13,503 nucleotides of DNA from SAR202 cluster bacterium (GTDB taxonomy: Bacteria > Chloroflexota > Dehalococcoidia > UBA3495), in NCBI GenBank assembly GCA_009392075.1, contig VFHG01000353.1, positions 1 through 13,503 of the forward strand, written 5' to 3'. Made by a program: the position numbers and the translations under genes. Shown here in pieces: positions 2 through 12,210 of this stretch (the first letter of the stretch is position 1; each line of letters begins with the position of its first letter). The notes beneath the pieces were generated by a model. The model saw nothing but the letters and a program-made list of their open reading frames with translations. It was not told the DNA's origin and ran no database searches.

Positions 2-295
2 CCCTTCGAGGTGGAAAGCGCGTTGATCGAACACCCTGCTGTCGCCGAATCGGCCGTCGTGGCCAGTCCGGACGCGGTGCGGGGCGACGTCGTCAAAGCC
101 TTCGTAATCCTGGCGCCAGACTACGTGGCCTCAGATGAGCTGGTGGTCAGCCTGCAGGACCACGTTAAGAACGCCACAGCCCCCTACAAATACCCCAGGG
201 TCGTTGAATTCGTGACTGAATTGCCCAAGACCGTCAGCGGCAAGATACGCCGGGTGGAACTGAGGCAGCAGGAACTGGACCGGGCGGGCCAGTAA
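2..295 (+). CDS. AMP-forming acyl-CoA synthetase, C-terminal fragment (gene starts upstream of window)
   Basis: This is the small C-terminal lid domain of an ANL-superfamily acyl-CoA synthetase, which activates a carboxylic acid to acyl-AMP and then to the CoA thioester in the cytoplasm. The reading frame is open from base 2 with no stop, so the start lies off the left edge; 97 residues remain. Visible landmarks are [14 protein letters not shown] at residues 1-14 (the region after the hinge, motif A8), KAFVIL at 32-37, TAPYKYPR at 59-66, and [11 protein letters not shown] at 74-84, whose Lys81 is the conserved A10 lysine needed for adenylation. The [20 protein letters not shown] combination is typical of medium-chain acyl- or acetyl-CoA synthetase-like members. 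The stop codon overlaps the start of the next gene (TAATG). Substrate cannot be read from this fragment. Confidence 0.9.
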
Positions 296-948
296 TGCCC
301 GGTTTCAGCGAACAACTAAGGGTTGAAGCCGAGCCTATCTGGCGAAAGATCTTTGACCATCCTTTTCTAAAAGAGGTCAAGGATGGAACGCTGCCTTTGG
401 AGACCTTCCAGTACTACCTGGCCCAGGACTATCTGTACCTAGAGGGGTTCGGGCGGACCGTTGCCATGGCCCTGGCCAAAGCCCCCAACTCACAGACCTT
501 TCAGGACCTGGCCCACCGGGTAATGACCCCGGTAGAGCGGCCGCTGCACCATAAGTTATTTGCCGAGGCCGGGCTAACGATCGCCGATGCTGAGAGCGCT
601 GTCCGGTCGCCGGCCAACACCGCCTACGTCGATCATATGTTGCAGACCGTGTCCTTACACGGCCTTGGCCCCGCTGCCGCCGCGTTGCTGCCCTGCCCGT
701 GGACCTACCACCTTTTGAAGGACGAAGTCGGCCAGTCGGAGCATCCGCTCTACGGGCAATGGACCAGCTTCTACGTCCAGGGATTGCTGGAGGGGAGCGT
801 TGAGGCCTGGCGCGGGTTTGTAGACCAGATGGCTGACGACGCCGGTCCGGTGGAACTTGAGGCCATGCGCCAAGCCTTCATGACCAGCAGCCGCTACGAA
901 TTCATGTTCTGGGAAGCCGCCTACAATCGTCAGCAGTGGCCGGTCTGA
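295..948 (+). CDS. tenA: TenA/thiaminase-II family aminopyrimidine aminohydrolase
   Basis: The 217-residue product matches the all-helical TenA family in length and motifs. TenA enzymes hydrolyse aminopyrimidine breakdown products of thiamine (and thiamine itself) to HMP for salvage. Residues that line up with the Bacillus subtilis active site are Asp45 and Tyr48 (QDYLY), Tyr111, Cys134 (the nucleophile, in LLPCPWTY), Tyr138, Tyr160 (SFYVQG), and a glutamate in the C-terminal YEFMFWEAAY (Glu202 or Glu207). Retention of the cysteine places it in the TenA_C group, expected to be catalytically active. The ATG shares one base with the stop of the upstream acyl-CoA synthetase, so translation is probably coupled. 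No TPP riboswitch is visible. The pathway is well supported; the exact salvage substrate is not. Confidence 0.88.
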   Translation: MPGFSEQLRVEAEPIWRKIFDHPFLKEVKDGTLPLETFQYYLAQDYLYLEGFGRTVAMALAKAPNSQTFQDLAHRVMTPVERPLHHKLFAEAGLTIADAESAVRSPANTAYVDHMLQTVSLHGLGPAAAALLPCPWTYHLLKDEVGQSEHPLYGQWTSFYVQGLLEGSVEAWRGFVDQMADDAGPVELEAMRQAFMTSSRYEFMFWEAAYNRQQWPV

Positions 949-1994: not shown

Positions 1995-3092
1995 CTACGG
2001 CGCGCTTGAGCCAGGCCCCCAGTTGTTGGGGATGTTGATAAGCGCGGACTCCAGGTCGGCCACGTCGCTCTGGCCACAGAAATCCATGACCCGTCCAACT
2101 TCTTCCCGGAGCAGTTCAAGGATGTTGTGGACTCCGTCCTCGCCTTCGGTTGCCAGGCCCCAGAACAGGGGCCGGCCGATGCCAACGGCCTTGACGCCCA
2201 AGGCTAGGGCTTTCAGCACGTCGCTGCCGCGGCGTACCCCAGAATCCAGGTAAACTTCGCAGTTGCCCTTAACCGCATCGACGATCTCAGGGACCATCTC
2301 AACGGAGCTCATGGTCTGGTCCAACTGGCGTCCGCCGTGGGTGGAGACCAAGATGCCTTCGACACCGCTTTCGGCTGCGATTTTGGCATCCTCGGCGACC
2401 CGGACACCCTTTAGAACCAGGGGCAGGGGGGTTAGGCTCCGCAGCCATTCCAAGTCTTTCCAGGTGATTGGGTCGGCCCGGGAGACATCCCAGCCGGGGG
2501 TGTCGTCAGTGCCGCTGATCTCGGATCGCGAGAGACCAGAGTCACGGAAATTGCCCAACTCCAGCTTGCGCTCGAATTGATTATGCAGGTCGCGCTCCTT
2601 GGGGCTTGGCACCGGTGTGTCTACAGTCAAGACGATGGCCTTGAATCCCGCGGCCTCGGCCCGGTGGACCAGCATCTCTGTGAGGGCGGCGCCCCGATGG
2701 TAAAGCTGGAACCAGAGGGGTCCGGTGGCGGCTTCAGCCACCTCTTCCATACTGTTGTTGGAGGCTGTACTGAGCATCATCAGTGTGTTCGAACGGCCCG
2801 CGGCCCTGGCGGTGGCCACTTCGGCGTCGGGATGGGCAATGCCGTGGCTGCCGGCGGGGCAGACAAACACTGGCATGCTGATGTCGGTGCCGAGCATGGT
2901 GGTCGCGATCTTACGTTCTTCAACGCTGCGCATGAAACGGGGACGGATCGTCAGTTGGTCGAACGCGCTACGGTTCCGCTTGGTTGTGAACTCGTCCATG
3001 GCGCCGGCATCGATAAAGTCCCAACTGTCGTGGGGCAAAGCTAGCTTGGCCCTGGCTTCATAGTCGTAGAGATTGATGGGGTCGTTTGCCAT
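1995..3092 (-). CDS. FMN-dependent alpha-hydroxy-acid oxidase/dehydrogenase (glycolate/lactate oxidase family)
   Basis: A 365-residue single-domain TIM-barrel flavoprotein of the glycolate oxidase/lactate oxidase/LldD family, which oxidises an alpha-hydroxy acid to the 2-oxo acid using FMN. Core residues are present: Tyr131 (WFQLY), Asp158 (LTVDTP), Lys228 (LVLKGV), the catalytic base His252 and Arg255 in STHGGRQLD, and the phosphate-binding stretch DSGVRRGSDVLKALALG followed by GIGRP. Two pocket positions differ from glycolate oxidase by my alignment: Phe26 replaces the carboxylate-binding Tyr24, and Lys165 replaces Arg164 (PSPKERD instead of GxRExD). DSG also replaces the usual DGG. The ATG follows a near-ideal AGGAGG. 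No membrane segment or signal is seen. It is monocistronic, facing the shared terminator at 1932-1968. The family is certain; the substrate is not. Confidence 0.9.
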   Translation of the reverse strand: MANDPINLYDYEARAKLALPHDSWDFIDAGAMDEFTTKRNRSAFDQLTIRPRFMRSVEERKIATTMLGTDISMPVFVCPAGSHGIAHPDAEVATARAAGRSNTLMMLSTASNNSMEEVAEAATGPLWFQLYHRGAALTEMLVHRAEAAGFKAIVLTVDTPVPSPKERDLHNQFERKLELGNFRDSGLSRSEISGTDDTPGWDVSRADPITWKDLEWLRSLTPLPLVLKGVRVAEDAKIAAESGVEGILVSTHGGRQLDQTMSSVEMVPEIVDAVKGNCEVYLDSGVRRGSDVLKALALGVKAVGIGRPLFWGLATEGEDGVHNILELLREEVGRVMDFCGQSDVADLESALINIPNNWGPGSSAP

Positions 3093-4182: not shown

Positions 4183-5175
4183 TTAATCCTCTTGGCTGGG
4201 GGTTATGGGGACTAGGCCGGGAATCCACCATTTCTCCCAGGTCTCGTCGATCTTGTCCTGGAATTTCTTGATGTCTTCCGGCAGGAAGTGGGCGAACCGG
4301 CCCTGGCGCAGGAGGTAGTCCTCAACCGGCTTCCGCTTGCGAATCCCCTTGGCGATGGCGCGGCTGGGGCCGTTGAGAATCAACTCGTTGTCGATAATCT
4401 CATATTGGATCCACAGGCCTGTCTCGATGGCCAGCATCCCCAACTCGTGTGAGTACTTGGGGTCATAGTCCCAGCCTTTGGGGCAGGGGTCGATGCAGTG
4501 GATGAAAGTCGGCCCGCCGGAGGTCAGGGCACGGCGCACCTTGTTGTTGAAGTCCAACCCATAGGAAGCGCAGGCCGTGGCCACGTACTTCATGTCTGGA
4601 TGTCCGACTGCCAACATCGGCGCCATGTTCTTCTTCCAACGGGTGTTCATGTTCCGGATCGCTGTGCCCGGAGGGCTGAACGTGGTGTTGGCTCCCCAGG
4701 GGGTGCTGCCCGACGCTTGAATGTCGGTGTTGGCGTACGACTCATTGTCGTAGCAGATAATCAGGAGGTTGTACTCATCGTGCTGCAGAGCCGCGGACAA
4801 GGCTGAAAGCCCCATGTCCACTCCGCCGCCGTCGCCGCAAAAGGCGATGACGTTGATGGGTTCTTCCTGCATCTTCCCCTTGCGCATCATGGAATTCAGA
4901 CCCGCGGCCGTTCCGGTGGCGGCCGAGCCTGCCGACCCTAGTTGGGTGTGCATCCATGGCACTACCCACGGGGTGCTGTAGTAGGTGGTGTTGGCTACGT
5001 ACATGCAGCCGGTGCTGCCCAGTACGATGGTCCGCTGTCCGGCGGCCTTGATCATCAGCCGCATCACCAGGGCCGATTCGCAGCCCTGGCAGGTCCGGTG
5101 ACCAGAGGAGTAGAACTCCTCCACCGGGATATTCTTAACTCCCTTAATCTGGGGAAGGTCTTGCAAAGTAGCCAT
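4183..5175 (-). CDS. 2-oxoacid:ferredoxin oxidoreductase, beta subunit (TPP-binding; OOR-like complex)
   Basis: A 330-residue PorB-type subunit that binds thiamine pyrophosphate and the proximal [4Fe-4S] cluster. Cluster ligands are visible as Cys29 and Cys32 (GHRTCQGCESAL), Cys57 (GSTGCMYV) and Cys231 (DPCPKGW). The TPP/Mg motif begins at GDGGG (114-118) and ends with CYDNESYANT (Asn144). It is followed by IQASGSTPWGANTTFSP, close to the family's IQRSGSTPYGAWTT region. The C-terminal end beyond about residue 285 has a charged helix and the tail WWIPGLVP. It is the last gene of the operon, five bases after the alpha stop, with an AGGGAG Shine-Dalgarno. Beta subunits do not reveal the oxoacid substrate well; see the alpha subunit. 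The enzyme acts in the cytoplasm and reduces ferredoxin; such enzymes are usually oxygen-sensitive. Confidence 0.93.
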   Translation of the reverse strand: MATLQDLPQIKGVKNIPVEEFYSSGHRTCQGCESALVMRLMIKAAGQRTIVLGSTGCMYVANTTYYSTPWVVPWMHTQLGSAGSAATGTAAGLNSMMRKGKMQEEPINVIAFCGDGGGVDMGLSALSAALQHDEYNLLIICYDNESYANTDIQASGSTPWGANTTFSPPGTAIRNMNTRWKKNMAPMLAVGHPDMKYVATACASYGLDFNNKVRRALTSGGPTFIHCIDPCPKGWDYDPKYSHELGMLAIETGLWIQYEIIDNELILNGPSRAIAKGIRKRKPVEDYLLRQGRFAHFLPEDIKKFQDKIDETWEKWWIPGLVPITPSQED

Positions 5176-5180
5176 CTTGA

Positions 5181-6404
5181 TTACTCCCTTACCGCGACCC
5201 AGGTGGTCTCTTGTTCAATTTTACCAGTATCGACGGCTTTTTGGGTGGTTTCTACCATTTGATCTATATCATGAACCATAACTTCCCGTCCGCCTAGGCC
5301 CGCGATGAAGTTCAACATCATAGGCCGATCGTCCAGGTTGTAAAGGGTTGAACGCAACTCGTGGAACAAGACACCGCCGAAAGACGGCGAGCCGTAGGAA
5401 TAGTCGCGGTCGATGACCGCCACGCCCTTAGCCTTGCCCAGGACTTCCTGAATCTCTGCAGCCGGGAACGGCCTGAAGAATTTTATGCGCAGGAACCCGA
5501 CCTTTTTGCCGGCCTCCCGCATGCGGCGAACGGCCACCCTGGTCGGCATGGCAAGTGTGCCCATCCCCACCAGAATGATCTCTGCGTCATCGCACATATA
5601 CTCTTCGATGAACGGGCTGGGGTCACCGCGCCCAAATATTTCCCGGAACTCATCGTAGGCTTCTTTTATCACTCCGGATGTCCGGCGCATGGCCTCGTCG
5701 GTCTGCTTCCGGATCTCCATCAGCCAGTCCTCGTTCACTTGAGGGGCCACGGTGATGGGGTTGTCTGGGTGCAACTGCAGCGTGCCACGCTGGTAGCTGG
5801 GCAGGAATTTGTCCACCTGCCCTTGGGACGGCACCTGTACGATGGCCTGTGAGTGGGTCAAGAACGAGCCGTCGCAACTCAGGGCGAAGGGCAGGAGAAC
5901 CCTGGGGTCTTCTGCCACCTTCCATGCGATCAGCGCCATGTCCAACGCCTCTTGGGCTGTGGCTACCCAGTAGAGGTGCCAGCCCAGGTCACGGACGGCC
6001 ATTGCGTCATTGTGCTCAACGCCGAAGGCACCGGGATCGTCTAGCGCGCGGTTGCCCACCATGGCTACCACTGGCATCCGAAGCCCGGCGGTGACGGTGA
6101 TGGCTTCAAAGGCGTAGAACCAGCCCACTCCGCTGGATCCGGTGAAGGTCCGGGCGCCCACTGCTGAGGCGTGTTTCACGATCTCGAACTGGGAGTGCTC
6201 GCTCTCGGCAACGATGAAATCGAAGTCGAATTTGCCGTCGGCCTTGAGACGGGATACGTATTGCATCACCGTATCGTAGGGCCGGATTGGATATGCGGTG
6301 ATCACATCGACGTCGGCGAGGGCGCAGGCAATCCCGATTGCCTCACTGCCGCTGATCAGTTCCTCTGTGGATTCTGCATAGGGTTTCGACTGTACTGTTG
6401 CCAT
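5181..6404 (-). CDS. 2-oxoacid:ferredoxin oxidoreductase, alpha subunit with oxalate-type YPIRP motif
   Basis: A 407-residue PorA-type subunit covering domains I and II of the enzyme. Family landmarks: TAYPIRPYD at 37-44 and 45, AESEH (66-70), TGSSGVGW (88-95), VGNRALDDPGAFG (116-128), FFRPFP (309-314), VIDRDYSYG (330-338), and IAGLGGREV (367-375). Pyruvate enzymes have YPITP, where the Thr contacts substrate; here Arg41 takes its place. In Moorella oxalate oxidoreductase, as I recall, this residue is Arg31, with Arg109, Asp112 and Phe117 in the substrate loop. With an offset of ten, Arg119, Asp122 and Phe127 here match all three. The ATG at 6404 is chosen over an upstream start at 6509 because it overlaps the preceding stop (TAATG), follows a GGAGG box, and starts the conserved domain. 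Oxalate is the leading substrate hypothesis, not proven. Confidence 0.92.
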   Translation of the reverse strand: MATVQSKPYAESTEELISGSEAIGIACALADVDVITAYPIRPYDTVMQYVSRLKADGKFDFDFIVAESEHSQFEIVKHASAVGARTFTGSSGVGWFYAFEAITVTAGLRMPVVAMVGNRALDDPGAFGVEHNDAMAVRDLGWHLYWVATAQEALDMALIAWKVAEDPRVLLPFALSCDGSFLTHSQAIVQVPSQGQVDKFLPSYQRGTLQLHPDNPITVAPQVNEDWLMEIRKQTDEAMRRTSGVIKEAYDEFREIFGRGDPSPFIEEYMCDDAEIILVGMGTLAMPTRVAVRRMREAGKKVGFLRIKFFRPFPAAEIQEVLGKAKGVAVIDRDYSYGSPSFGGVLFHELRSTLYNLDDRPMMLNFIAGLGGREVMVHDIDQMVETTQKAVDTGKIEQETTWVAVRE

Positions 6405-7555
6405 TAGGCTTCCTCCGTCGCAGTGATCTCTTCGTCGTAGCCGCCAACGTGGTGGAAACCATGGGTCCGAGTCTCGGTTTTCGTTTGATCCACTAGGACA
6501 GTCATCCATTTGTTATAGCCGTCTTTGTCGGCCGTCCAAGCGTCCCATTGGCTGTTGTTGTCGTTGAATTCTGCCTCGCTCACCATGGTCACGCAGTCGG
6601 GCACCGGACAGACGGCTTCGCAGACCCCGCAACCGCAGCACGACTCCATGTTAGCGTCATACAGACCGTCTGGAGTAACGTCGAAACAGGTGTCAGGACA
6701 CTGCAGCCAGCAGAGTGTGCATTTGATGCAGGTGTCGAAGTTGATAACCGGGCGCATAGACCGGGTGCTCCACTTCTTAAAGACTTCGCTCCGGCCGGGC
6801 TGGTAGCCTTCGTCACCGCCCCTAAAGCCGGTGCCTTCGGGAAGACCGCGGATGACCAGGCCTTCTTCCATGGTCTTCCAGCCGGGCATGTCAAAGCTGA
6901 ACGGGGTCTCGGAGTTGCCCTCGCCTGGCTCGACGAGCCGGGTGGTTGTCCGGTCGTGGGCGCGTTGGACCGAGGCAACCTTGGTGCTGTTGTCCGTCTG
7001 CTCCTGGATAGACTCCAACATAGCCTCGAGGCTCACCAACTCAGGGCAGACCTTGCAAAGCGTTCCCAAGATCCGCATGTCGGTGTGGTCGTCTTTGTAA
7101 ACCCAGAGACCGGAGAAACTCACAGTGCTGGGGATGATTGCCAGGTCGTAAGGAGTGTCTTTCTGGTGGATGTCTTCGATCAAGGAATCAGCGTCCTGGC
7201 GGGAGGTCACGATCAAAGTTCCGCCAGACTTAGTCAGTTCGTTTATGGGTTGAAGACCATACCAGGCCCAGGACTCGATTCCTTTGCACATGGCATCGTC
7301 AACGTTGATGGTGACATCCACGGCTTTTGCCTCGTAGACGGCCAGGCTTTCCTCAAGTTCCAGGGCTGTGTCACAAACGATCGCGAATTGCTTGGCTGGG
7401 ATGCCATTTCTTTCGGGGGAGTCGCTGTAACGCCCAAAGGCGGTGCCAATCTTGCCGTCCTTACGGGCGGCGAATACGATCTGTCGGACGATGTTCCGGG
7501 CCAGTGTCCGCTGGAATATGCCCCGGTACACCACCTCCACGGCTAGAGTAGCCAT
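6404..7555 (-). CDS. 2-oxoacid:ferredoxin oxidoreductase, gamma-delta fusion subunit (2x[4Fe-4S] ferredoxin domain)
   Basis: A 383-residue protein joining a gamma domain (about residues 1-180) to a delta-type bis-[4Fe-4S] ferredoxin domain (about 265-330), separated by a linker rich in charged and glycine residues. The ferredoxin ligands are C276IKCTLCWLQC286P and C306CGCGVCEAVC316P, two full CxxCxxCxxxCP motifs that pass electrons to an external ferredoxin. The gamma domain keeps the fold's SPERNG (46-51, usually ERRGG/A) but lacks the glycine-rich GxGGQG at the N-terminus, reading YRGIFQRTLARN (10-21). Moorella oxalate oxidoreductase also has a fused gamma-delta subunit encoded before alpha and beta, as I recall. 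A GAGGAGG box precedes the ATG. The stop overlaps the alpha start by one base, implying coupled translation. Confidence 0.9.
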   Translation of the reverse strand: MATLAVEVVYRGIFQRTLARNIVRQIVFAARKDGKIGTAFGRYSDSPERNGIPAKQFAIVCDTALELEESLAVYEAKAVDVTINVDDAMCKGIESWAWYGLQPINELTKSGGTLIVTSRQDADSLIEDIHQKDTPYDLAIIPSTVSFSGLWVYKDDHTDMRILGTLCKVCPELVSLEAMLESIQEQTDNSTKVASVQRAHDRTTTRLVEPGEGNSETPFSFDMPGWKTMEEGLVIRGLPEGTGFRGGDEGYQPGRSEVFKKWSTRSMRPVINFDTCIKCTLCWLQCPDTCFDVTPDGLYDANMESCCGCGVCEAVCPVPDCVTMVSEAEFNDNNSQWDAWTADKDGYNKWMTVLVDQTKTETRTHGFHHVGGYDEEITATEEA

Positions 7556-7600: not shown

Positions 7601-8326
7601 TTAATTGTTGGTGACCGCATCTGGGTAAACCGCGGACGGCTCCACTGCGGTCAGATGATGTTCCATTGCCGACCGGGCGCCCATGTGGTCTCCGGCCCGG
7701 ACCATATCCAAGATATGGCGATGAGAGTCTAATGACCTCTGGGACCGGCCTGGTTGCTGCAAAGTTTGGTCGCGGGATTGACGCAATACGTCTTCAACCG
7801 CGCTGACCACTTTGACCAATGCGGTGTTGTGGGTGGCGGTGGCCAAGGCGAAATGGAACTCTGTGTCGGCATCTACACCGGTCTCGCCCTCCATGATCTG
7901 ACGCTGTTGTTCAACCAAGATAAATGAAAGCCGCTCTACGTCCTCTGGAGTGGCCCGTTGCGCCGCCAAAGCGGCTAGTTGGGGCTCTAAGAGGTGTCTA
8001 ACTTCAAAAATGTCATGGAGCTGGGCCTCAACGGCGTCCAATCCAACGCCCAAAGATGACGTCATCAAAGTGGCAACGGCGTCCAGACTCTGGGTGTTTA
8101 CGAACGTCCCGGAACCGTGTTTGCTGACAACCAGTCCCTGTAGTTCCAAGGTCCTGATGGCTTCTCTCACCGAACTGCGGCTGACCTTTAGTTGCTCGGC
8201 CAAGACCCGTTCAGACGGTAGCTTAGCTCCATGTTCCAGAGACCCATCTTGGATCAAAGCGTGAAACCGCTCGACGATAGACTCGTGGAGCCGTTGACCT
8301 TGGAAATTGCGCAATTCAGCTTGCAT
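7601..8326 (-). CDS. FadR-family (GntR/FCD) transcriptional regulator of the oxidoreductase operon
   Basis: A 241-residue regulator with an N-terminal winged helix (about residues 10-76: LPSERVLAEQLKVSRSSVREAIRTL, wing at GSGTF) and a C-terminal all-helical FCD ligand domain. FCD metal ligands are visible as Asp154 and His158 (DTEFH), His204 (SHRHI) and His223 or His224 (MEHHL), the metal-containing type that commonly binds carboxylic acids (LldR, GlcC and related proteins). The ATG at 8326 is preferred over a TTG at 8380 because the latter lies inside a palindromic operator and the usual FadR start is about ten residues before the first helix; neither has a strong Shine-Dalgarno. It is the first gene of the operon, 45 bases before the gamma-delta subunit, suggesting autoregulation and control of the enzyme by its substrate or a relative. 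Confidence 0.9.
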   Translation of the reverse strand: MQAELRNFQGQRLHESIVERFHALIQDGSLEHGAKLPSERVLAEQLKVSRSSVREAIRTLELQGLVVSKHGSGTFVNTQSLDAVATLMTSSLGVGLDAVEAQLHDIFEVRHLLEPQLAALAAQRATPEDVERLSFILVEQQRQIMEGETGVDADTEFHFALATATHNTALVKVVSAVEDVLRQSRDQTLQQPGRSQRSLDSHRHILDMVRAGDHMGARSAMEHHLTAVEPSAVYPDAVTNN

Positions 8327-8365
8327 AGGTTTAGCCGTTGTCTTGCCCGGTAGGAAGCTCGAAGA

Positions 8366-8382
8366 AAGTGGTCTGACCAATT
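8366..8382 (-). promoter_or_regulatory. FadR/PdhR-type operator (AATTGGTCAGACCACTT)
   Basis: The core TGGTC-A-GACCA (8369-8379) is a perfect palindrome matching the TGGTNNNACCA consensus of FadR-subfamily regulators; the outer bases match the PdhR-like AATTGGTnnnACCAATT on one side. It lies about 9-25 bases downstream of the predicted transcription start, where a bound repressor would block the polymerase. Confidence 0.7.
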
Positions 8383-8612: not shown

Positions 8613-9866
8613 TTGCAAGATGTGATAGTGGTGGGCGCTGGCCCGGCGGGCAATAACACTGCCCTTTCTTTAGCTTCCATGGGTTACGGCGTTACGGTCA
8701 TAGATTCCCGGGAGAACATCGGCGATAAACTCTGCACCGGTCTGGTTGGTGAAGAATGTTTTCGACGCTACCCCATAGACCCTAAACTGGTCCATCGAGA
8801 GCTCAATTCGGCTAGCGTGATTGCCCCTTCTGGGGAGGTTGTCAGATTTGAAACCCCCTATCCTGTCGCCCGGGTGGTCGACCGGGTGGCCTACGTGGCT
8901 TCATTCGCCGATAGAGCCCGGGAAGCCGGCGCTGAATACCTGTTAGGCCACCGTGTATTGAGCCTGGAACAGCGGAAAGACCGAGTCTCAGTGGTAACCG
9001 ATGACGGGACCAAAGAAGCCAGAACATTGGTTTTGGCGGCTGGGTTTGGCTCCCAATTGAACCGCCAGCTGGGACTTGGAGAGCCATCGGATTATGTAGT
9101 TGGCGTCCAAGCCCTGGTTAAGACAGAAGGCGTTGACGAAGTTGAGGTCTATCTCGGACGTAATATAGCCCCTGGGTTCTTTGCCTGGCTCGTTCCAACA
9201 CAGCCCGGATACGCCCTGGCCGGTCTGCTGGTGCGTAAGAACGCTCCGGAACGGTTCGCCCGGTTTGTATCCTCCAGGCAGGCGGAGGGGAAGATCACGG
9301 GATCGATGGACAAACCGGTGTGTTGGGGCATCCCACTACGGCCGCTGCGCAAGACATATTCAGACAGAGTATTGGTAGTTGGCGACGCCGCAGGACAGGT
9401 GAAACCGACCACCGGCGGCGGAATCTTTTATTCCCTTCTCGCCAGCGAGGTCGCCTCAGGCGCGTTGAATCTGGCCTTGAATGAAAATAGGCTGTTTGCC
9501 AACCGCCTGGGCGCCTACCAGAAAAAATGGAAAAGCCTGCTCTCCGATGAACTGGAAGTGGGTTATTCCGCTCGCCGGGTATTTGAGTACTTGGGTGATA
9601 GCCATATTAGTTCGCTGATCCACCAGGCCAGCAGGAACGGCTTAATCGCTGAACTGGCCGACTCTTCAGATGTGTCATTCGACTGGCATAGCTCAATGAT
9701 TCGGAAGATCATGGGCCATCCAACTTTGGGCGGTGTGCTTAGGGTGGTGAACCCTCTATTAGCGCGGATGGCCAAGACGCCGGAGCCGGTGGAGGTTTTC
9801 TCTGCTGATGCTACCCTGGAACCCACTCTGGACGACTCTTTGGCCGAATCAGGCACCCCGGTATAG
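8613..9866 (+). CDS. Geranylgeranyl-reductase-family FAD-dependent oxidoreductase
   Basis: A 417-residue flavoprotein of the geranylgeranyl reductase/FixC superfamily. Members reduce isoprenoid double bonds of chlorophyll side chains, archaeal lipids or menaquinone. Visible motifs: the FAD Rossmann fingerprint VVGAGPAGNNTA (6-17), GDKLCTG (37-43) with Cys41 at the position of a conserved active-site cysteine in archaeal enzymes, FAWLVP (190-195, the YxWxFP region), and VVGDAAGQVKPTTGGGI (255-271) for the second FAD contact. The TTG start is supported by AAGGAAGG six bases upstream and by the FAD motif starting at once. No membrane helix is obvious. In a bacterium without other photosynthesis genes in view, menaquinone side-chain saturation is a reasonable guess. 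NfeD and SPFH genes follow on the same strand and may share its transcript. Confidence 0.85.
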   Translation: MQDVIVVGAGPAGNNTALSLASMGYGVTVIDSRENIGDKLCTGLVGEECFRRYPIDPKLVHRELNSASVIAPSGEVVRFETPYPVARVVDRVAYVASFADRAREAGAEYLLGHRVLSLEQRKDRVSVVTDDGTKEARTLVLAAGFGSQLNRQLGLGEPSDYVVGVQALVKTEGVDEVEVYLGRNIAPGFFAWLVPTQPGYALAGLLVRKNAPERFARFVSSRQAEGKITGSMDKPVCWGIPLRPLRKTYSDRVLVVGDAAGQVKPTTGGGIFYSLLASEVASGALNLALNENRLFANRLGAYQKKWKSLLSDELEVGYSARRVFEYLGDSHISSLIHQASRNGLIAELADSSDVSFDWHSSMIRKIMGHPTLGGVLRVVNPLLARMAKTPEPVEVFSADATLEPTLDDSLAESGTPV

Positions 9867-9918
9867 GAACTTTCCAATCCCCATCATTTAATCGGCTTCA
9901 AACAAGACGGTGGATCTT

Positions 9919-11289
9919 ATGACCCAGCGGTTCCGGTTGGTCCGTCTCTCTCTGGTTTTCGTCTTTTTGGGCATGTTGATAACCGGCATGTTGGGGCCGG
10001 TTATCGCCCGCGCCCAGGAGCCGGACTCCCCCCACGCCTTGGTGATCACGGTCGATGGAATCATCAACAACGTTAAAGAAGGCTTCATCGCTCGGGCTAT
10101 CGACAAGGCCGAAGAAAACAGTGCGACGCTCCTGATCATTCAACTGGACACGCCCGGTGGACTGCTCAGCTCGACTCGCGAGGTAGTTGAACTGCTTTTG
10201 GAGTCTCCGGTGCCGATCGCGGTTTTCGTTTCACCAAGAGGAGCCAGGGCTGGCTCGGCGGGGACGTTCATCACGGCGGCGGGTAACTTCGCGGTGATGG
10301 CGCCGGGCACCAACATCGGCGCCGCATCTCCCATATCGGCAACCGGCGAAGACTTGGACGATACTCTGGCCAGCAAGGTCGAGAACGATGCCTCCGCCCT
10401 AATCAGGAGTATCGCCCAGACGCGGGGCCGAAACCAAGACAAGCTGGAGGAGACGGTCCGGACAGCGGCCTCCTACTCCGCCCAAGAAGCCTTGGCCGAC
10501 AACGTGGTGGACCTGATAGCAGATGACTTGGAAGACTTGCTGGCCAAATTAGACGGTCTGACCGCTGAGACTTCGATAGGCACGGTCGTGCTTGAAACAA
10601 AGGGTCTGGAGCTTTTCCAACTAGAGAAGAACATCTTGGAGCACTTTTTGGAGTTCATCTCTGACCCCAACGTGTCATTCATCCTGCTGACCATGGGTGG
10701 CTTGGGGATCGTGGTTGAACTGTTCAATCCCGGTTTGATTGCTCCTGGGGTAGTTGGCGTGATCTGTCTGCTGCTGACGTTCCTAGCGCTCGGCAACCTG
10801 CCGGTCAACTGGGCCGGGGTTGTGTTCGTTATCTTGGCAATGGTGTTGACCGTGCTGGAAGTGGTGGTGGCGGGGTTTGGCATCTTGGGCGTGGGAGCTA
10901 TCGTTAGTCTCATCGTCGGTGGCCTGATCCTGTTCACCCAGTTCGGAGACGCATCTCCAACCATGCCGTCAATAGAAGTCAGCAGATGGGTTATATCTGG
11001 CACAGGCGGCGTGGTGAGCCTGGCCTTGGTGTATATCGTTGGAACAGCCTATCAGTCGCGCAGGCAAGGGCCGCCTGAAAAGGCGTCTGCCTTGGCCGGT
11101 ATGCAGGGCATGGTTACCGGCGAACTAGCGCCTAGAGGTATAGTTCTTGTGGGCAACGAAACCTGGACAGCGATTAGCGAAGATGATAGTGCGATTTCGA
11201 TTGGCGAACCGGTTGAAGTTAGAAGCGTGGAAGGCCTGATTCTGACGGTTTTTCGCCAAAGTGATACAGGAAAGCAAGAAAACTCGTAA
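9919..11289 (+). CDS. nfeD: NfeD-family membrane-bound ClpP-class serine protease
   Basis: A long-form NfeD protein (456 residues) with three parts. A signal or anchor helix (about 8-33) leads to a ClpP-class protease domain (about 40-210). The nucleophile Ser113 lies in RGARAGSAGTF and the general base Lys153 in ASKVENDASALI, the Ser-Lys dyad known from Pyrococcus PH1510. Hydrophobic helices fill about 252-380 (ILLTMGGLGIVVELF, GVVGVICLLLTFLAL and others), and a C-terminal soluble OB-fold NfeD domain (about 393-447) ends the protein. Such proteases cut partner SPFH/stomatin proteins, and an SPFH gene follows directly. The ATG at 9919 is preferred to a GTG at 9910, since GGTGGA stands just before it. 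The gap to the upstream flavoprotein gene is 52 bases. Role: membrane protein quality control or microdomain organisation, inferred from the family. Confidence 0.92.
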   Translation: MTQRFRLVRLSLVFVFLGMLITGMLGPVIARAQEPDSPHALVITVDGIINNVKEGFIARAIDKAEENSATLLIIQLDTPGGLLSSTREVVELLLESPVPIAVFVSPRGARAGSAGTFITAAGNFAVMAPGTNIGAASPISATGEDLDDTLASKVENDASALIRSIAQTRGRNQDKLEETVRTAASYSAQEALADNVVDLIADDLEDLLAKLDGLTAETSIGTVVLETKGLELFQLEKNILEHFLEFISDPNVSFILLTMGGLGIVVELFNPGLIAPGVVGVICLLLTFLALGNLPVNWAGVVFVILAMVLTVLEVVVAGFGILGVGAIVSLIVGGLILFTQFGDASPTMPSIEVSRWVISGTGGVVSLALVYIVGTAYQSRRQGPPEKASALAGMQGMVTGELAPRGIVLVGNETWTAISEDDSAISIGEPVEVRSVEGLILTVFRQSDTGKQENS

Positions 11290-11343
11290 TATGTCCAGGT
11301 CCTTAACAACGCAGTCCATCGCTTGGAAAATAGGGAGGAGAAC

Positions 11344-12210
11344 ATGGCATTCGGTCTGATACTTGTTCAGCAATACCAAAGATTGGTCGTGCAAAAGTTC
11401 GGCACCTTCGTTGGCACTCGCCGTTCCGGCCTGCATTTCCTTATGCCCGTCGTCTATCACGGGACCAAGGTTGACCTGAGAGAAAGGGTGACCCGGGTCC
11501 CCACCCAGAAATACATCACCGCCGACAACGTGGTAGTCGATATGGACTTCGTCATCTACTACAGGGTGATGGAGGAATATGCCGAGCGTGCGGTCCTGGA
11601 GGTACAGAACTTCGAGTTGGCCGTGGTCAACCTGGCCTTCGCCACATTGAGGGCAGTGATTGGCGGGACAACGCTATCCGAGGCCCTGGCGGAAAGAGAG
11701 CGCATAAGGGATGCCCTCCAGGTCCGGATGGATGAAGTCACCGAACGATGGGGAGTTAAGATCTCCCAGGTAGAGATCAATGAGATCGACCCACCTCCCG
11801 GCGTGAAGGCGGCCATGGAGCGGGAAAAATCAGCGGAAGCCATCAAGACCGCGGAAATCACCGAGTCTGAGGGCGCCCGGCAGTCTCAGATCAACGTTGC
11901 TGAAGGCGAGAAGCAAGCGTCGATCCTATCGGCTGAGGGCCAGCGCCAATCCGAGATTCTCAAGGCTGAGGGCGAGCAGCAAGCCGCCGTGCTCAGAGCC
12001 TCGGGATTCAGTGAAGCTCTAGAACGCATAAATAGTGTTGCGAGTACCGCGGACGGGCGCACCATGAGCCTTCAGTATTTTGAGACGTTGAAGTCTCTAG
12101 GCGAGAGTCCGTCCACCAAATGGATCTTCCCCATGGAATTCACTTCCATGCTGGGCAATTTCCTGGGTATGGGCGGCAACCAAGGAAACGGAGATAGTAG
12201 CTCCAAATAG
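11344..12210 (+). CDS. SPFH/Band-7 (stomatin-like) protein without an N-terminal membrane helix
   Basis: A 288-residue SPFH-domain protein; the domain spans about residues 5-165 (YITADNVVVDMDFVIYYRV at 58-74; VKISQVEINEIDPPPGVKAAME at 138-159). The coiled-coil tail that follows contains an 11-residue repeat with units beginning at residues 172, 183, 194, 205 and 216 (for example INVAEGEKQAS, ILSAEGQRQSE), typical of the ring-forming stalk. The C-terminus holds a hydrophobic MLGNFLGMGG segment and a polar tail. Most stomatins begin with a membrane helix or hairpin; here the domain starts at once, and an in-frame stop at 11287 leaves no room for one. The ATG has a GGAGG five bases upstream; a TTG at 11323 adds only seven polar residues. 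It is the likely partner of the NfeD protease encoded 54 bases before it. Confidence 0.92.
   Translation: MAFGLILVQQYQRLVVQKFGTFVGTRRSGLHFLMPVVYHGTKVDLRERVTRVPTQKYITADNVVVDMDFVIYYRVMEEYAERAVLEVQNFELAVVNLAFATLRAVIGGTTLSEALAERERIRDALQVRMDEVTERWGVKISQVEINEIDPPPGVKAAMEREKSAEAIKTAEITESEGARQSQINVAEGEKQASILSAEGQRQSEILKAEGEQQAAVLRASGFSEALERINSVASTADGRTMSLQYFETLKSLGESPSTKWIFPMEFTSMLGNFLGMGGNQGNGDSSSK

Follow-up and report, generated by a model that had tools for sequence, protein, structure and literature searches.

The window analyzed here, a stretch of 13,503 nucleotides of SAR202-type (Chloroflexota) DNA, carries at positions 4183 to 7555, on the minus strand, three open frames that encode the gammadelta, alpha, and beta subunits of a 2-oxoacid:ferredoxin oxidoreductase. 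A search placed an identical alpha subunit on a contig of SAR202 bacterium OSU_TB47 (L004). The three genes are as follows.

6404..7555, minus strand: gammadelta subunit, 383 amino acids, with a domain III-like N-terminal part and two 4Fe-4S clusters (Cys 276/279/282/286 and Cys 306/309/312/316)
5181..6404, minus strand: alpha subunit, 407 amino acids, with YPIRP (R41), R119, D122, D123, A126, and F127
4183..5175, minus strand: beta subunit, 330 amino acids, binding thiamine diphosphate (ThDP), with Cys 29/32/57/231 probably ligating the proximal 4Fe-4S cluster

The genes follow one another in the order gammadelta-alpha-beta, and neighbors either overlap by one base or lie five bases apart. 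A longer open frame for alpha starts at 6509 and overlaps gammadelta; the nearest relatives are ~407 residues long, which matches the shorter start. We propose, with a probability of about 0.7, that these genes encode a coenzyme A (CoA)-independent, ThDP-dependent, ferredoxin-reducing enzyme that works like the oxalate oxidoreductase (OOR) of Moorella thermoacetica (PDB 5c4i/5exd/5exe) and forms a distinct subclass sister to it. The Moorella alpha and beta subunits carry the locus tags Moth_1592 and Moth_1591, respectively (PMC13290082).

Among solved structures, OOR was the closest relative of all three subunits, with 335 bits for alpha (versus 228 for pyruvate:ferredoxin oxidoreductase [PFOR]), 305 bits for beta (versus 196), and 82 bits for gammadelta (versus 47 for the PFOR delta chain). 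It also gave the best fold match of alpha and gammadelta, and OOR was the top NCBIfam model for each subunit. Alpha stayed below the curated cut-offs of PorA (356.7 of 550 bits) and PadG (phenylglyoxylate dehydrogenase; 271 of 700 bits). In an alpha tree that took in 26 YPITP-type rows and left out true PadG, the YPIRP alphas formed one branch (support, 100/100) apart from all 26, and the window alpha, ~43% identical to that of Moorella, lay outside the Moorella clade (100/100) in a sister clade (100/99). Across 46 of 53 betas, 34 conserved positions agreed with OOR and not with PFOR, and 11 showed the reverse. An earlier sequence-only reading of this DNA had named a firm grouping of alpha with pyruvate or branched-chain enzymes as a result that would refute OOR; the window alpha stands apart from the YPITP-type rows, and the refutation did not come about. 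The same reading had expected annotation to name the enzyme PFOR, and public names, where given, mostly do so. The four-subunit PFOR of Methanosarcina acetivorans (PDB 9bt4; NCBIfam PorA) shares the superfamily, the domains, and the cluster layout with the window enzyme. However, it has Thr in YPI(T/R)P, lacks the D112/F117 loop, keeps gamma and delta as separate chains, and falls on the far side of the fully supported branch.

The residues around the substrate site point in the same direction. R41, R119, D122, and F127 of the window alpha align exactly with R31, R109, D112, and F117 of Moorella OOR (PDB 5c4i chain A), which confirms the correspondence proposed in the sequence-only reading. 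The fusion of gamma and delta, also claimed there, is borne out by the single gammadelta subunit. That residue list omitted Asp116 of OOR, which is Ala in the window alpha. Arg occupies the YPI(R)P place in all 82 genome-derived relatives, whereas all 27 relatives from outside the clade (21 matches in Chloroflexota genomes and 6 plasmid records, few named and none characterized here) have Thr in YPITP, YPVTP, or FPITP. The Thr of YPITP is described as binding the carboxylate of pyruvate (PMC5020499). The full YPIRPY motif was present in 119 of the 120 nearest proteins and in 81 of the 82 genome-derived loci (FPIRPY in the remaining one of each), in 119 of the 120 closest matches of a proteobacterial member (an alignment gap in the remaining one), and in none of the 27 outside relatives; the protein lists hold the best 120 of several thousand. 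Fourteen alpha positions, including OOR R31, D112, and F117, are common to both YPIRP types and rare in 28 outside alphas.

The ligands for electron transfer are likewise in place. Two CxxCxxCxxxCP sets are kept in gammadelta (in the 44 sequences aligned, out of 59), and Cys 29, 32, 57, and 231 of beta stand where OOR and PFOR have theirs, so that the window enzyme combines the gammadelta fusion with the cysteines for three 4Fe-4S clusters, as in Moorella-type OOR.

The genes that surround the operon in related genomes were compared by tblastn over 81 loci (80 relatives and the window), many of which have truncated flanks. Curated formyl-CoA:oxalate CoA-transferase (Frc) and/or oxalyl-CoA decarboxylase (Oxc) genes were found in the flanks of 9 of the 21 loci whose titles name Proteobacteria or their alpha, beta, or gamma class. 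Frc scored over its cut-off in eight of these (L049, L052, L061, L062, L066, L071, L072, and L068, the last with a copy 70% identical to that of L052 and over the cut-off in the genome search), against 0.08 loci expected by chance in a calculation that ignores kinship and concerns a group chosen after the hits. Curated Oxc lies in the flanks of L051, L066, and L071. Over whole genomes, Frc exceeded its cut-off in 18 and Oxc in 5 of the 21 proteobacterial hosts; among 14 control genomes, 1 did so for Frc and 1 for Oxc. This Frc/Oxc (type II) pathway presumably shares its substrate with the window-type enzyme but is CoA dependent and yields formate instead of reduced ferredoxin.

In six of the proteobacterial loci (L049, L052, L061, L062, L068, and L072), a ThDP enzyme stands directly before Frc (~5 kb before it in L049), with no Oxc seen in the flank. 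For the five copies scanned, the PRK05858 acetolactate synthase model and, in four of them, the 2-hydroxyacyl-CoA lyase model scored best, though never above cut-off; this enzyme could be an unrecognized oxalyl-CoA decarboxylase or lyase.

The window itself has other neighbors.

7601..8380, minus strand: GntR/FCD-family regulator, 45 bases upstream of gammadelta
1995..3092, minus strand: flavin mononucleotide (FMN)-dependent 2-hydroxyacid oxidase, ~1.1 kb downstream of beta
295..948, plus strand: TenA thiaminase II (thiamine salvage), a recurrent neighbor (27 of 81 loci)

The regulator was found upstream of the operon in 40 of the 81 loci and the FMN oxidase downstream in 35, the latter being frequent in Chloroflexota loci; both counts include the window, and both genes are always on the same strand as the operon. 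The nearest solved structure of the FMN oxidase is hydroxyacid oxidase 1/glycolate oxidase (290 bits), compared with ~212 bits at best for a single-domain lactate oxidase; two lactate oxidase entries with higher totals are tandem chains, at ~198 bits per copy. Glycolate oxidases oxidize glyoxylate on to oxalate, and the FMN oxidase is a possible candidate source of glyoxylate and oxalate. TctC of the tripartite tricarboxylate transporter was detected near the operon in 12 of the 81 loci, and this transporter is a candidate oxalate uptake system. Genes for TctA, TctB, or TctC occur near the operon in L047, L049, L051, L052, L055, L056, L060, L062, L066, L072, L077, L079, and L080.

Beyond the FMN oxidase, an alpha/beta hydrolase gene and tenA lie on the opposite strand, and a cut-off frame past tenA is taken for the end of an acyl-CoA synthetase gene, judging from the gene at the same place in relatives. 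A link between TenA and the ThDP enzyme of the operon is only a suggestion. On the other side, positions 8613 to 9866 and 9910 to 12210 hold a gene for a geranylgeranyl-reductase-family flavoprotein adjoining an NfeD and SPFH/Band 7 pair; the flavoprotein and NfeD are each beside the operon in 16 of the 81 loci. A protein of ~460 residues adjoins the operon in 8 of the 81 loci (L049, L053, L057, L058, L061, L063, L068, and L072), and the one copy scanned had no Pfam match at an E value of 1e-8. A divergent cluster with a ThDP enzyme lies upstream of the operon in L015, L018, L019, L021 to L023, L025 to L032, L034, L035, L040, and L044. The nearest models of this ThDP enzyme (one copy scanned) were sulfoacetaldehyde acetyltransferase and acetolactate synthase, below cut-off, and the cluster often includes a two-domain family III CoA-transferase and a ThiO-like amine oxidase.

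From these elements, a reaction sequence can be proposed. R41 and R119 would hold oxalate, which would add to ThDP with the loss of CO2. The remaining carboxyl adduct would then be oxidized to a second CO2, and the two electrons would pass from the beta 4Fe-4S cluster to the gammadelta pair of clusters and on to ferredoxin. RALDDPGAFG, as the plug loop, would act as a gate to the site, its acidic switch lying at OOR position 113 instead of 116. In SAR202, oxalate could come from outside the cell or from glycolate and glyoxylate through the neighboring FMN oxidase, and the operon would be under the control of the adjacent GntR regulator.

Several results weigh against the assignment to an OOR-like enzyme. 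All three subunits missed the curated OOR cut-offs (372 of 500, 362 of 590, and 98 of 230 bits). In the plug loop, Asp116 and Pro113 of OOR are replaced by Ala (A126) and Asp (D123) in the window clade. Window-clade proteins carry RALDDPGAFG after R119 in 118 of 120, 82 of 82, and 120 of 120 cases (V for F in the other two); 80 of the loci had been retrieved with a pair of peptide patterns, of which PG[AD]FG[VE]EH spans the loop, admits Ala or Asp at 116, and fixes Phe at 117. The Moorella-type loop is R[T/A]LDPPGDFG in all 120 proteins listed, and Asp at 116 is present in all 120 Moorella-type alphas listed versus none of the 322 aligned window-clade relatives. Arg31 and Asp116 are reported to carry the bait-and-switch mechanism of Moorella OOR (PMC5020499). 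The alignment suggests that the acidic switch residue may have been displaced from OOR position 116 to position 113, a role that would fall to Asp123. Over the whole of alpha, 22 positions, conserved to 95% or more within either clade, distinguish the window clade from the Moorella clade; at some of them (e.g., S68 and N118) the outside rows mostly share the window residue, and at others (e.g., T34 of OOR) they mostly share the Moorella residue.

The gene neighborhoods also set limits. At 40% identity, no Oxc or Frc neighbor was found in any of the other 60 loci, including the window and the Chloroflexota loci. Among 197 sampled genomes of the order of the SAR202 host, for which the best 8 or 6 candidates per genome were scored, Frc exceeded its cut-off in 1 and Oxc in 12, and neither did so in any of the 47 that carry a window-type alpha. 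The case for oxalate in the window's lineage therefore rests on kinship, active-site residues, and one neighbor, and in the SAR202-order hosts the window-type enzyme would be the sole oxalate route that can be named. Frc is, moreover, called ubiquitous across metabolisms (PMC10192776). The best NCBIfam models of the FMN oxidase are L-lactate dehydrogenases (267 of 376 bits), and those of the regulator are LldR, NanR, and PdhR, followed by GlcC; all are below cut-off, and the lactate dehydrogenase, LldR, and PdhR models would fit lactate and pyruvate. We know of no assay of any member of the clade.

One SAR202-order genome, L114 (G304), has adjacent canonical Oxc and Frc genes. Because it is not among the genomes with a window-type alpha, the order may hold two alternative oxalate routes.

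The OOR identity put forward in the sequence-only reading stands as far as kinship, both substrate arginines, and the gammadelta fusion are concerned. It does not stand in the strict sense, since the enzyme belongs to a sister clade, has an altered plug loop, and scores below the curated OOR cut-offs; it therefore probably works like OOR rather than being an OOR by strict test. We conclude that it is a plug-loop-altered sister subclass of OOR, found in probable aerobes from both ocean and soil, and not a Moorella-type OOR.

Of the other substrates considered, glyoxylate is the least improbable, though we regard it as unlikely. A glyoxylate:ferredoxin oxidoreductase would turn glyoxylate, supplied by the adjacent glycolate oxidase, into formyl-CoA and CO2; in the proteobacterial clusters, this formyl-CoA would serve to prime Frc. 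Such an enzyme would agree with the glycolate oxidase-like FMN enzyme beside the operon in 35 loci, with the adjoining Frc, a formyl-CoA user, in 8 of 21 proteobacterial loci, and with a plug loop unlike that of OOR. However, R41 gives the site a second substrate arginine, which would favor a dianion like oxalate over glyoxylate. Three of the clusters, moreover, already contain Oxc, the enzyme that converts oxalyl-CoA to formyl-CoA, and the gammadelta model is nearest to the OOR chain. Another small dianionic 2-oxoacid, e.g., mesoxalate or oxaloacetate, is a distinctly unlikely substrate: R41 and R119 imply a dianion without naming it, and both the 22 clade-specific differences from OOR and the unexplained ThDP enzyme/CoA-transferase/amine oxidase cluster upstream in many Chloroflexota loci would leave room for it, but the Oxc and Frc genes alongside the enzyme in Proteobacteria speak for oxalate. 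Highly improbable is a conventional oxidoreductase for pyruvate (or another 2-oxoacid) supplied by a lactate oxidase or dehydrogenase, as the public names and the below-cut-off lactate and pyruvate models of the FMN enzyme and regulator would have it, given that the pyruvate-binding Thr is Arg in essentially all members seen, that the alpha lies outside all 26 YPITP-type rows and far below the PorA cut-off (357 of 550), and that, judged by solved structures, the FMN enzyme resembles glycolate oxidase more closely than lactate oxidase.

The sequence-only reading had called ferredoxin-linked oxalate oxidation a trait described in very few bacteria, which understates the distribution of the clade: besides the 47 of 197 genomes of the host's order, loci came from Alpha-, Beta-, Gamma-, and Deltaproteobacteria, Acidobacteria, Armatimonadetes, Myxococcales, and others, all titled metagenome-assembled genomes. 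In a class sample of 197 genomes, 81 matched the OOR model at an E value of 1e-60, mostly with lower scores, as did 4 of 14 control genomes; none of the 197 exceeded the OOR cut-off, and the three highest (L084, L085, and G001) were of the window type. The COX1 family of haem-copper oxidases, to which nitric oxide reductases also belong, was present in all 21 chosen hosts (11 SAR202-order genomes and 10 from elsewhere), and these hosts can therefore probably respire oxygen, a further difference from Moorella OOR.

In the 11 SAR202-order hosts, the pyruvate-type N-terminal domain occurred in the window-type alpha or in frames of 571 to 626 residues of another type, with the exception of one 445-residue frame in G200; another SAR202 genome (G383) has an extra frame of 418 residues. 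Two of the 11 hosts, Casp-Chloro-G2 and G3 (L010 and L015), are presumably genomes of the study that reported PFOR in SAR202. Since the domain is nearly confined to these two kinds of frame, the published reports of PFOR and por in SAR202 may concern oxalate oxidation. SAR202 is an abundant group of dark-ocean waters; the reports in question attribute an "anaerobic" PFOR route to it (PMC5864207) and describe por transcripts (PMC9416657).

A 2023 survey presents oxc and other oxalate genes in marine data and describes active oxalotrophs as documented only on land, and its main text does not contain the word oxidoreductase (PMC10192776). Literature searches on oxalate oxidoreductase, on SAR202 with PFOR, oxalate, or glycolate oxidase, on oxalate in Chloroflexi, and on oxalate in seawater yielded nothing on the window clade among the matches listed. 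We lean towards the view that a whole unrecognized OOR subclass with a re-engineered plug loop exists in aerobes from several phyla, foremost in dark-ocean SAR202, where it is perhaps the published "PFOR," and that it draws low-potential ferredoxin electrons from oxalate, including that produced by the cell's own glycolate oxidase. If this is true, oxygen-respiring bacteria gain low-potential ferredoxin electrons from oxalate. With its marker gene and its residue difference (Asp116/Pro113 to Ala/Asp), the clade makes marine oxalate use and the bait-and-switch mechanism testable.

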